A stretch of DNA of 64,000 bases from Paramagnetospirillum magnetotacticum MS-1 (GTDB lineage: Bacteria; Pseudomonadota; Alphaproteobacteria; Rhodospirillales; Magnetospirillaceae), in NCBI RefSeq assembly GCF_000829825.1, contig NZ_JXSL01000027.1, positions 496,001-560,000 on the forward strand, read 5' to 3'. The position numbers and the translations under genes are program-made. Below the pieces are notes generated by a model. The model made no database searches, was not told the origin of the DNA, and saw only the letters and a program-made list of their open reading frames with translations. Numbering within the stretch: position 1 is the stretch's first letter; the number at the start of each line of letters is the position of its first letter. Of the stretch, positions 16,985-20,019 are shown one piece after another.

Positions 16985-18388
16985 TCAGATCACCCGAACG
17001 TTCTTGAACTGCCAGGGATCGGAGGTATCCAGATCCTCGGCGAACAAAGCCCCGCGTCCGTCCAGCGGCGTCCAGTCGGTGTAGACCCCCACCACCGGCC
17101 CCAAATAGGGCCGGGCGACCTCCAGGATACGCTGGAAATCGATTTCGTCGGGCTCGACGATTCCCATCATGGGATTTTCCAACGCCCAGATCATGCCAGC
17201 CAGCACCGTTGCGGTGACCTGCAGGCTGGTGGCGCTGTTATGGGGTGCCAGTTCGCGGGCTTCGGTGATGGAGAGCTGCGAACCGTACCAATAAGCCCCC
17301 TTGGCATGACCGGCGATCAGCACGCCCAGTTCATCGATTCCGCTGACCAGTTCCTTGACCATCAGCCGTTGTTTGGACGGCATGGCCCAGTTCTTCCCGG
17401 CCAGTTCATGCAACGACAGCACGGCGGCGTCACAAGGGTGATAGGCATAGTGCACCGTGGGGCGGTAGACCACCCGGCCCTCCTCCTTCACCGTGAAATA
17501 ATCGGCGATGGAGATGGATTCGTTATGGGTGATGAGAAAGCCGTGAAATGCGCCTTCCACCGGCGTCCAGGTCCGCACCTTCTGGCTGGCGCCGGGCTTC
17601 ATCAGATAGATGGCCGCATCGCCGCCGAAATCGTGGCGCCGCCCATCGGGGGGCAGTTCCTTTTCGTGAGTGCCCCAGCCCAGTTCGGCGGGCTGGCAGC
17701 CCTCGCCCACGAAACCGTCGATGGACCAGGTATTGACGAATTCGTCGGGTCCCTTGGGAGTCGAGCCCTGCTGGGTATCGCGTTCGGCCACATGGATGAC
17801 CTTGACGCCCAGCCGCGAGGCCAGATCACCCCAGCCCTGACGGTCCTTCGGCACGTCAGCGCCCATTCCGGTGTCGGCGGCGATATTCAGTAGAGCCTGC
17901 TTGACGAAATGGGAGACCAGGCCGGGATTGGCGCCATGGGTGACAAGCGCCGTCGGCACCGGCGCGTCGACCCGAAGACGCAACATCTCTTCGCGCAGCG
18001 CATAATTGGAGCGCAAGGACGGCGACAGGCTGAGATCGGTATATCCGCCAGCCCAAGGCTCGATGCAGGTGTCCTGATACAACACCCCGAGATCGCGGCA
18101 CAGCTCGACCAGCGCGGTCGACGACACATCCACCGAAAGATTCAGCAGGAAGTCGCCCTTGCCCAGCATGGGAGTCAGACGGTCGCGGAAATCGTCCTTG
18201 GTCAGCGCTTTGTTGATGAATTCGATGCCGTATTCGGCGGCAACCTCGCGGCCGCGTTCGCAGGCCGTAATAATGGTGATCTGGGCCGGTTTGATCTCGA
18301 TATGGCGCAGGATGAGGGGCAGAATGCCCTGGCCGATGCTGCCGCAGCCGATGATGACCAAACGGCCCTTGAAGACAATGGTGCGCAT
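16985..18388 (-). CDS. hss: Homospermidine synthase
   Basis: A 467-residue NAD-dependent enzyme that makes sym-homospermidine from two putrescines (or putrescine and spermidine), the main long polyamine of many alphaproteobacteria. The N-terminal Rossmann fold is seen as LVIIGCGSIGQGILPLILRH. Other family segments include LLNLSVDVSSTALVELC, YQDTCIEPW, THGANPGLVSHFVKQAL and ITHNESISIADYF. Start ATG 18388 has GGGGAG (18396-18401) five to seven bases upstream. The leader is long and structured (see separate entries). Length matches the family. Confidence 0.92.
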   Translation of the reverse strand: MRTIVFKGRLVIIGCGSIGQGILPLILRHIEIKPAQITIITACERGREVAAEYGIEFINKALTKDDFRDRLTPMLGKGDFLLNLSVDVSSTALVELCRDLGVLYQDTCIEPWAGGYTDLSLSPSLRSNYALREEMLRLRVDAPVPTALVTHGANPGLVSHFVKQALLNIAADTGMGADVPKDRQGWGDLASRLGVKVIHVAERDTQQGSTPKGPDEFVNTWSIDGFVGEGCQPAELGWGTHEKELPPDGRRHDFGGDAAIYLMKPGASQKVRTWTPVEGAFHGFLITHNESISIADYFTVKEEGRVVYRPTVHYAYHPCDAAVLSLHELAGKNWAMPSKQRLMVKELVSGIDELGVLIAGHAKGAYWYGSQLSITEARELAPHNSATSLQVTATVLAGMIWALENPMMGIVEPDEIDFQRILEVARPYLGPVVGVYTDWTPLDGRGALFAEDLDTSDPWQFKNVRVI

Positions 18389-18395
18389 AGCGGTA

Positions 18396-18533
18396 CTCCC
18401 CTTACCTCGGTTCTGGCCGGTGCCAGTAAGGCCCGGACCTGATGACATCAACAACGCTCCCAATCACGGGCTCCTTACGGAGACCGCGCTCGATGAATTC
18501 GGCGGCAGGCGACCTGAATCGGCCGCGACCGCC
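18396..18533 (-). promoter_or_regulatory. Structured hss leader with mutually exclusive pairings
   Basis: Minus-strand RNA. Right after the upstream ORF stop comes a stem GGCGG (18533-18529)/CCGCC (18505-18501). Then GTAAGG occurs at 18478-18473 and again at 18405-18400, with the complementary CCTTAC at 18431-18426 between them. Pairing with the first copy can be extended by CCCG/CGGG. Pairing with the second is reinforced by an inner TGGC/GCCA stem and covers the start of the hss ribosome site. Only one pairing can form at a time. The pairings were read by eye, without folding software. Confidence 0.5.
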
Positions 18534-18534
18534 G

Positions 18535-18588
18535 TCACATACTGTGAAGAATTTCCGGGATAACGCCCGTCGTGCAGGTCACGAACAT
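18535..18588 (-). CDS. Upstream ORF (17-residue leader peptide candidate) of hss
   Basis: ATG at 18588 encodes MFVTCTTGVIPEILHSM and stops at 18535. A very good ribosome site, AGGGAGGTGG, lies five bases ahead of it. It is 147 bases upstream of the hss start, on the likely hss transcript, and its stop is one base before a GC-rich stem. Leader peptides that sense polyamines are known for other polyamine genes (for example SpeFL ahead of speF in Escherichia coli). Whether this one is translated or conserved is unknown; the same frame is also open further upstream. Confidence 0.45.
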   Translation of the reverse strand: MFVTCTTGVIPEILHSM

Positions 18589-18678
18589 GTCCACCTCCCT
18601 TTCGGGCGCCGCCAAAGAACCCGGCGGCTCTTCCAAAAAGGACGCGTCCGTCGTTGCAGAACCATCAAGGGCCATTTG

Positions 18679-18688
18679 CACGTACGTG
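18679..18688. promoter_or_regulatory. CACGTACGTG palindrome in the hss promoter region
   Basis: A perfect ten-base palindrome lying about 10 to 20 bases after the predicted hss transcription start, a typical place for a repressor. The regulator is unknown. Confidence 0.35.
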
Positions 18689-18704
18689 TGCGTCACTGAT
18701 CCGC

Positions 18705-18733
18705 TATATACCCGTCCCTTTACTGCGATGCAA
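18705..18733 (-). promoter_or_regulatory. Putative sigma-70 promoter of hss
   Basis: TTGCAT (plus 18728-18733) and TATATA (plus 18705-18710) are separated by exactly 17 bases on the minus strand. The start site would be near 18698, giving a leader of about 310 bases before hss. Together with the leader entries this accounts for most of the 464-base gap between hss and the next gene. No other gene was supported there. Confidence 0.5.
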
Positions 18734-18852
18734 TACCTCTTGGTCCCAAGCGATATCGCGTACCGCCTATTCGATGGCCTGGGCACGGGACCGTCCCTGC
18801 CCCATATGATCGCAATCTGGTATAAGGTCTGTAGGAATAAGAGGAGCAAGTG

Positions 18853-20019
18853 ATGCACCATCCTGGGCCATGGCGTTCCACCGTGTCGGCGCTTTTTGCC
18901 AATCTGGTGGGTATCGGTCTGGCCCGCTTCGCCTATTCCCCGCTGATTCCGGCCCTGGTGGTGGAAGGCTGGTTCGAAGCCTCGGCCGCCGCCTATCTGG
19001 GCGCCGCCAATTTGGCCGGATATCTGGCCGGTGCGCTGTCGGCCCGTGCCCTGGGGCGCCGCCTGGGTCCTGCCTTGGCCCTGAAGGTGATGATGGGCCT
19101 GATCGCCGCGTCTTTTCTGGTCTGTGCCCAACCCGCCCCCTTTGCCTGGTTCTTCATCTGGCGCTTTGCCTCGGGTCTGGCCGGAGGCGTCATCATGGTC
19201 CTGGCCGCCACCCTGGTCCTGCCCCATGTGCCGGAATCGAGACGCGGCCTGGCCGGGGGCCTGATCTTCATGGGCGTGGGCCTGGGCGCCGTGGCCTCGG
19301 CCACCTTGCTGCCCCTGCTTCTGGCCCAGGGCATGAGTTTCACCTGGATCGCGCTCGGCCTGCTGTGCCTGGGCTTCACCCTGGCCGCCTGGAGCGGATG
19401 GCCCGAGGACGCGGTCCTACCGGCAAGCACTCCTGCCGCCCCCCTCAAGGATTCCCGCCTGCGCGCCCTGATGGTCATCTACGCGCTGAATGCCTTCGGA
19501 CTGGTGCCGCATATGGTGTTTCTGGTGGATTTCGTGGCGCGCGGCCTGAACCAGGGAATCGGGCGCGGCGCCTTCATCTGGTTTCTGTTCGGATTGGGAG
19601 CCACGGTGGGTCCGGTCATTCTCGGCCGGCTCGGAGACCATTTCGGCTTCGGCAGGGTTCTGCGCGGCGCTTTGGCGACCCAGGTCCTGGTGGTGGGACT
19701 GGCCTCGACCACCAGCCAGATCGGATGGCTGGGTCTGTCCGCCCTCATCATGGGAAGCTTCACGCCGGGTGTGGTGCCTGTGGTGCTGGGCCGTGTCCGC
19801 GAACTGCTGCCTGGCGATTTCGGTGCCCAGCGCACCGCCTGGAGCCGGACCACCGCCGCCTTCGCCCTGGGACAAGCGGCGGGGGCCTATGGCCTGTCCT
19901 GGGTCTTCGCCACGGAGAAGGCCTATCCGCCGCTGTTCGCCCTTGGGGCCGTAGCATTGGCCCTGGCCCTGGCACTGGAACTGGTGGTCAGACGCCGGAA
20001 CGTTTCAGCGCCCGTTTGA
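18853..20019 (+). CDS. YbfB/YjiJ-family MFS transporter
   Basis: A 388-residue membrane protein with about twelve hydrophobic segments. The opening (ANLVGIGLARFAYSPLIPALVVEGWF) and AAYLGAANLAGYLAGAL are characteristic of the YbfB/YjiJ group of major facilitators. ATG 18853 is preceded by AGGAG at good distance; a GTG one codon earlier is possible. It is divergent from hss across a 464-base gap. Its cargo is unknown; a link with polyamines is only suggested by position. Confidence 0.8.
   Translation: MHHPGPWRSTVSALFANLVGIGLARFAYSPLIPALVVEGWFEASAAAYLGAANLAGYLAGALSARALGRRLGPALALKVMMGLIAASFLVCAQPAPFAWFFIWRFASGLAGGVIMVLAATLVLPHVPESRRGLAGGLIFMGVGLGAVASATLLPLLLAQGMSFTWIALGLLCLGFTLAAWSGWPEDAVLPASTPAAPLKDSRLRALMVIYALNAFGLVPHMVFLVDFVARGLNQGIGRGAFIWFLFGLGATVGPVILGRLGDHFGFGRVLRGALATQVLVVGLASTTSQIGWLGLSALIMGSFTPGVVPVVLGRVRELLPGDFGAQRTAWSRTTAAFALGQAAGAYGLSWVFATEKAYPPLFALGAVALALALALELVVRRRNVSAPV

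Follow-up and report, generated by a model that had tools for sequence, protein, structure and literature searches.

A conserved leader RNA with a small open reading frame upstream of homospermidine synthase in Paramagnetospirillum magnetotacticum, apparently a divergent relative of the ar45 and speF families

We analyzed a window of 64,000 nucleotides from the genome of Paramagnetospirillum magnetotacticum MS-1, which belongs to the Magnetospirillum group. On its minus strand lies a gene whose product carries Saccharopine dehydrogenase domains, as expected for homospermidine synthase. NCBIfam supplies no name for this protein, and the gene name hss is therefore taken from an earlier sequence-only reading of the window. 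A match to hss is present in 17 of 17 genomes of the genus; of the relatives that carry a name in the loci fetched, Paramagnetospirillum caucaseum is the nearest (hss 95%). The divergent neighbor, at window positions 18850-20019, encodes a YbfB-type MFS transporter (Pfam MFS_4). A 230-aa frame at 18535-19227, which encloses the small open reading frame (uORF) described below, has no Pfam match. From promoter to gene, the locus is organized as follows.

18705-18733, minus strand: promoter TTGCAT-N17-TATATA; TTGC[AG]T-N17-TATA[TC]A in 15/15 genus leaders.
18586-18694, minus strand: conserved leader RNA core, starting close to the presumed 5′ end and reaching the uORF ATG; 97.8 bits with covariance model R2 and 121.4 bits with model R1, a score that is not independent, the window core being one of the 17 sequences behind R1.
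18535-18588, minus strand: uORF of 17 codons (MFVTCTTGVIPEILHSM), with an AGT codon at 18543-18541.
18500-18534, minus strand: GC hairpin that begins right behind the uORF stop and is part of the minimum-energy fold in 15/15 genus leaders.
18426-18431, minus strand: CCTTAC of a proposed switch, in 1/15 genus leaders and not counted as part of the system.
18396-18408, minus strand: purine-rich hss ribosome site GAGGTAAGGGGAG, with identical letters in 6/15 genus leaders.
16985-18388, minus strand: homospermidine synthase gene (hss), from its Pfam Saccharopine dehydrogenase domains.

Everything that the sequence-only reading picked out is present where it placed it or about a base away: the promoter (TTGCAT at 18733-18728, N17, TATATA at 18710-18705), a palindrome just after the start site (CACGTACGTG, 18688-18679), and an ORF with GGGAGGTGG ahead of its ATG at 18588, running 17 codons to the TGA at 18537-18535. 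The palindrome occurs at a single place in the whole 4.5-Mb genome. A generic promoter scan and a simple terminator scan of the leader returned neither a promoter nor a terminator. The GC stem said to follow the uORF stop is predicted as a hairpin at 18534-18500, but it begins directly after the stop and not one base later. Part of its proposal, a leader with a small ORF before hss, is borne out by comparison, in that the same promoter, core, ORF and stop hairpin lie directly upstream of hss in 15 of 17 genus genomes. A contig edge cuts genome G013 38 nt upstream of hss, and genome G002 has hss without this leader within 360 nt upstream. Promoter spacing, the 17-codon length of the ORF and the stop hairpin are each kept in all 15 leaders, and 98 of 100 shuffles fold less well than the whole leader. 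The uORF stop is 133-183 nt from hss in the genus leaders, which is far for simple coupling. We conclude that the stretch upstream of hss is a conserved control RNA ending in a tiny, probably translated gene.

The same reading had placed the regulatory choice further downstream, with one CCTTAC (18431-18426) pairing with either of two GTAAGG copies (18478-18473 and 18405-18400) and thereby choosing hss translation. All three hexamers exist. However, just one of the 15 genus leaders has CCTTAC and just two have the upstream GTAAGG, and the closest relative has CCTTCG in place of CCTTAC. The fold of the region holding this switch is unremarkable, with 17 of 200 shuffles equally good. We rejected these alternative hairpins because their pairings are not conserved, which is a ground that the sequence-only reading had itself named for refuting them, and we regard a switch of this kind as scarcely credible. 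The conserved pairings of the leader lie instead around the ribosome site of the small ORF. There the uORF Shine-Dalgarno sequence is predicted to be base-paired, and a hairpin stands at the stop.

The leader was followed into other genomes with R1, built from 17 leaders, and R2, built from 85 leaders and three loci of the Rfam family RF00518. R1 matches 50 of 55 genomes of the family, 39 of them two to four times, with matches upstream of ornithine decarboxylase (ODC), hss or an ODC paralogue. We collected 98 leaders, namely 96 R1 family matches together with L039 and L046; rows L022 and L024, the same places as L141 and L191, were dropped. A classical ODC, of COG0019 type, is the first recognized gene downstream of all 48 class II leaders. 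Among the 50 class I leaders, 24 have an ODC paralogue as their first recognized gene, 20 have hss and 1 has a classical ODC; none was recognized in 5, one of which has just 0.6 kb downstream. Behind four class I leaders (L139, L157, L158 and L161) neither ODC nor hss was found, and a low-molecular-weight-phosphatase-like gene follows, identified by Pfam at L161 only. Two of these, L157 and L158, have identical leader letters and lie 28.7 kb apart on one contig. The source genome carries one leader of each class, the window copy before hss and a class II copy, at C20:136941-137053, before a COG0019-type ODC. The second copy was found with the covariance model; DNA similarity gave just short weak matches within the genome. 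In sister genera the same core lies upstream of the ODC paralogue, followed in several by hss. These model matches before ODC agree with the original suggestion of a polyamine-gene leader, as they relate the window core to leaders of other polyamine genes.

R2 matches 86 of 199 genomes from the order, own family included; in a sample of 385 genomes from the class it matches 78. Of the matched loci outside the family we examined 104, picked at about one per genus (L252 omitted). Within ∼1.8 kb downstream on the same strand, ODC is found in 94 and hss in 5; one further locus brings those with a polyamine-synthesis gene downstream to 100. In that locus, L290:301-660, the ORF of the leader is minimal (MSGSSLRG), and the genes behind it are those for S-adenosylmethionine decarboxylase and spermidine synthase (speD-speE), a third kind of polyamine target. 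A strong match at L336:404-1285 (E 9.9e-18) has a start that opens a glutamine amidotransferase class-I protein (Pfam), and at L284 the match (E 2.8e-12) is followed by an ORF of 136 aa, no polyamine gene being recognized there. The weak matches L331 and L332 (E 3e-4 and 7e-4) are probably due to chance.

Attempts to assign the leader to an Rfam family at gathering or relaxed thresholds gave no usable match. RF00518 (speF) has no match in the window at its gathering score (37 bits) and none over the leader at E≤10; it likewise has no match at gathering score in 16 relatives or at E≤1 in 15 further loci. RF02347 (ar45) has no match in the window at gathering score or at a relaxed threshold, and its best score in this branch, the single match in these scans, is 26.5 bits (L152) versus a gathering score of 40. 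A SorX match in the scan of the window leader (11.2 bits versus 46.6, on the opposite strand) was taken as chance. RF00518 loci from other families have core letters in common with the leader, and R1, built without them, matches 6 of 6 such loci at the same spot, from AACGACG onwards (E 2.6e-5 to 0.5; three at E≤0.001). R2 matches three RF00518 loci that are absent from its building set (E 7.8e-6 to 5.9e-4), and the six genomes matched by RF00518 among 190 are all within the R2 class matches. Counting against the relationship, a larger search with R1 failed to recover two RF00518 loci, L115 and L116, at E≤1.

At 6 of 6 RF00518 loci, which are Rhizobial ODC leaders, ar45 covers the 5′ part and speF the adjoining 3′ part. 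The window leader resembles ar45 in its 5′ letters (GCACGUGCC ... GCAACGACGG), followed by a U-rich end, and the Rfam ar45 alignment likewise ends in a U-rich stretch. It resembles speF in its position before ODC and in the pairing of a U-rich strand with a purine strand around an apical hairpin, in the same order. In contrast to these families, Rfam classes ar45 as a small RNA gene, the Rfam speF model is blind to this branch, hss is among the targets here, and an ATG-started ORF follows the purine strand, where none is seen in the six Rhizobial-type loci. A candidate start codon in the corresponding position of RF00518 loci was rejected; judged by eye, the frames differ between L112 and L113. 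Judging from shared letters and model matches, the core appears to be a divergent relative of ar45 and speF, both orphan Rfam families. Related leaders precede ODC genes in other Alphaproteobacteria, and thus these two RNA families may belong together in a single system of polyamine control.

The speF element was described in 2005 (Corbino et al. 2005, PMC1273637), where no binding by the six compounds tried is reported for the Agrobacterium relative, a set that does not include homospermidine. Its effector was stated to be unknown in 2013 (PMC3766115), and a 2024 review speaks of no strict evidence that speF is a riboswitch (PMC11477304). A 2008 paper gives speF and smrC45 as one Sinorhizobium locus (PMC2573895), and the role of ar45 is described as unclear in a paper from 2025 (PMC12403871). 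In Bartonella, expression of the ar45 RNA is reported to be independent of the speF leader that lies immediately after it, and ar45 RNA of Sinorhizobium co-precipitates with Hfq (PMC7717549). These last two reports are what speaks for a quite different explanation, in which the 5′ part is mainly a separate trans-acting small RNA gene of the ar45 type and the remainder a plain 5′ UTR. We consider this improbable. A polyamine-synthesis gene follows in 100 of the 104 loci examined, the structure runs across the U-tract into the ribosome site of the ORF, and early termination of a leader would likewise yield a short RNA.

The structural elements of the leader core are listed here.

18690-18694, minus strand: GACGC, 5′ arm of a putative helix P0, pairing with 18641-18645 in the fold of the 62-nt 5′ RNA (−19.8 kcal/mol).
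18641-18645, minus strand: GCGTC, 3′ arm of P0, a competing segment partly common to outer P3 in the folds.
18635-18639, minus strand: U-tract, terminator-like after P0, whose same T's pair in P3 (sequence and fold).
18592-18646, minus strand: P3, pairing 18642-18633 with 18605-18596 and, in its outer part, 18646-18644 with 18594-18592 (fold); it covers the uORF Shine-Dalgarno sequence.
18608-18628, minus strand: P4 apical hairpin, 18628-18621 with 18615-18608 (minimum-energy fold).

Pairing was assessed in alignment A3, made up of three RF00518 loci and 85 of our 98 leaders; 13 near copies and three chance matches of alignment A2 were kept out. Paired cells make up 92% of A3, and changes on both sides are seen in 22 of 29 pairs, including 11 of 12 helix pairs in P3 and 7 of 7 in P4, figures that are inflated because the alignment was fitted to that structure. 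None of 500 shuffles is as high on any of five measures, and sliding gives at most 51%. A covariation result for P2 was discarded, its arms having been set in the wrong register. For 14 of 14 genus leaders tested, out of the 15, an average of 0.17 of the uORF Shine-Dalgarno sequence is predicted to be unpaired. For the stop hairpin of class II leaders, 70 of 78 cells are paired with 13 distinct arm pairs, and 0 of 2000 shuffles is as high, at positions chosen to maximize pairing. Equal freedom for foreign arms leaves a small margin (6.25 versus 5.86 of 7), and we did not retain this hairpin as covariation evidence.

P0 and outer P3 compete for GCGTC when the RNA up to the uORF start is folded: with P0 enforced the energy is −42.1 kcal/mol and the Shine-Dalgarno sequence is largely free, versus −46.5 without enforcement. 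Of 90 leaders with TTTTT, 86 have a minimum-energy fold in which the 5′ end is paired to bases that precede the tract. When arms were swapped among leaders, the longest helix averaged 4.80 bp with a leader's own arm versus 4.51 with swapped arms, and at least 5 bp was reached in 54/69 versus 57%; for unusual arms, the own partner is no better than the common one (4.32 versus 4.35). P0 looks terminator-like because the U-tract follows it, and a 62-nt RNA ending there is allowed by folding. Its action as a terminator, for which the simple scan was negative, is something that we infer, as the arm-swapping test did not decide; the short ar45 RNA of Bartonella (PMC7717549) lends it some help.

What P3 hides is the start of the small ORF. 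A Shine-Dalgarno sequence and an ATG open a short ORF after the core in 98 of 98 collected leaders. Among the 104 outside-family loci, a short ATG ORF follows the core in 62, the start opens a long ORF in 26, and 6 of Rhizobial type are without ATG; 10, which count against the pattern, have no Shine-Dalgarno start after the core. The long-ORF leaders have their ATG within 165 nt in 24 of 26, and in 23 of those 24 the frame is ODC itself. The masked start is probably a true start, because across leaders it opens short ORFs or ODC, and in some lineages the leader RNA appears to govern ODC directly.

An AGT codon tends to mark the short ORFs near their end. It lies in frame within the last nine codons of 110 of 154 distinct ORFs, versus 5 and 7 in the other frames, although the sequences are related and these counts are therefore not independent. 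By group, it is present in 39/46 class I, 44/47 class II and 27/61 outside-family ORFs, at 27 different codon distances from the start, and the codon before it is often CGA (41), TCC (15) or TCG (11). The 24 ODC-opening leaders have no such frame bias (3, 7 and 8 in the three frames), and hss and ODC of the source genome use no AGT for serine. As AGT is linked to frame while ORF length varies, the short ORFs are probably translated. Constraint on the peptide is weak, with dN/dS mildly below one in these comparisons, which counts against the explanation we favor: the pooled value is 0.63 for 17 class I hss ORFs (two from other genera), versus 1.06 and 0.88 in the other frames, and for 32 class II ORFs it is 0.73 in their last 20 codons (middle 0.41, last seven 1.08). 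Conservation of the peptide, which the earlier reading had proposed as a check, was found in part: ORF length and much of the sequence are kept in close relatives, but the window peptide is among the less typical of its genus.

The variability of the peptides would fit an ordinary metabolite riboswitch, in which the 5′ domain controls termination or masks the Shine-Dalgarno sequence and the ORF just relays the outcome, its peptide and codons being irrelevant. The strong conservation of letters in the 5′ domain points the same way, as do the 24 of 104 leaders that lack a uORF and whose start leads into a long ORF. The linkage of AGT to frame argues against it, and the work of Corbino et al. (PMC1273637) is also cited against it. 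We therefore rate a plain riboswitch as rather unlikely, if well ahead of the small RNA explanation above.

The reading that we prefer, and consider likely, is that the leader is the hss copy of a polyamine-synthesis leader RNA present in many Alphaproteobacteria, in a Rhodospirillales branch of ar45-speF. Comparison supports a conserved 5′ domain, a P3 that would hide the Shine-Dalgarno sequence, a short ORF, and a hairpin at its stop. The GCGTC segment would either close the 5′ domain with the 5′ end of the RNA (P0) or extend P3 over the Shine-Dalgarno sequence, and the balance between the two would set both transcript completion and ribosome starts on the ORF. Ribosomes pausing or terminating near the conserved AGU codon might then open the stop hairpin, and this opening may set hss expression. 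The genes controlled suggest a polyamine, or a precursor of one, as the most likely signal.

More tentatively, and with clearly less confidence, we suggest a two-stage polyamine sensor that ODC, hss and speD-speE would share. A terminator-like domain would gate the mini-ORF, and a ribosome at the in-frame AGU, a rare codon, often in CGA-AGU and beside the stop-codon hairpin, would be the second sensor; homospermidine or another polyamine is the candidate signal. SpeFL and other arrest-peptide leaders of enterobacteria likewise have a polyamine gene behind their short ORF, which is conserved towards its end. The present leaders share the placement of the ORF, may share a conserved end, and differ in occurring in other bacteria and in having an RNA domain that masks the ribosome site of the ORF itself. 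Among the matches listed for the open-licence literature, we found no hss leader and no alphaproteobacterial ODC leader peptide.

The leader thus adds a new branch, and further target genes, to a kind of leader that is known but still lacks an explanation; it has a mini-ORF at its heart and a mechanism that we infer in part. It concerns two RNAs, speF without a known ligand since 2005 and ar45 without a known role, that look like two parts of one leader. The combined leader reaches hss and speD-speE and ends in a masked start, of either a mini-ORF or ODC itself. This reading names a step to test and a first signal to try, homospermidine, which is outside the 2005 list.

Among class II ORFs an ending like RQAWALLWxDVRSTSRRI is frequent, the stop codon falling at or inside a hairpin, and NP[L/H]SS is common to six ODC leaders outside the family. 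At two loci of the same genus the masked start is used differently: it is in the ODC frame at L229, versus a 12-aa ORF with ODC in another frame at L230. The difference could reflect a frameshift, a sequence error or a change of design, and programmed frameshifting, which this one case suggests, was not adopted.
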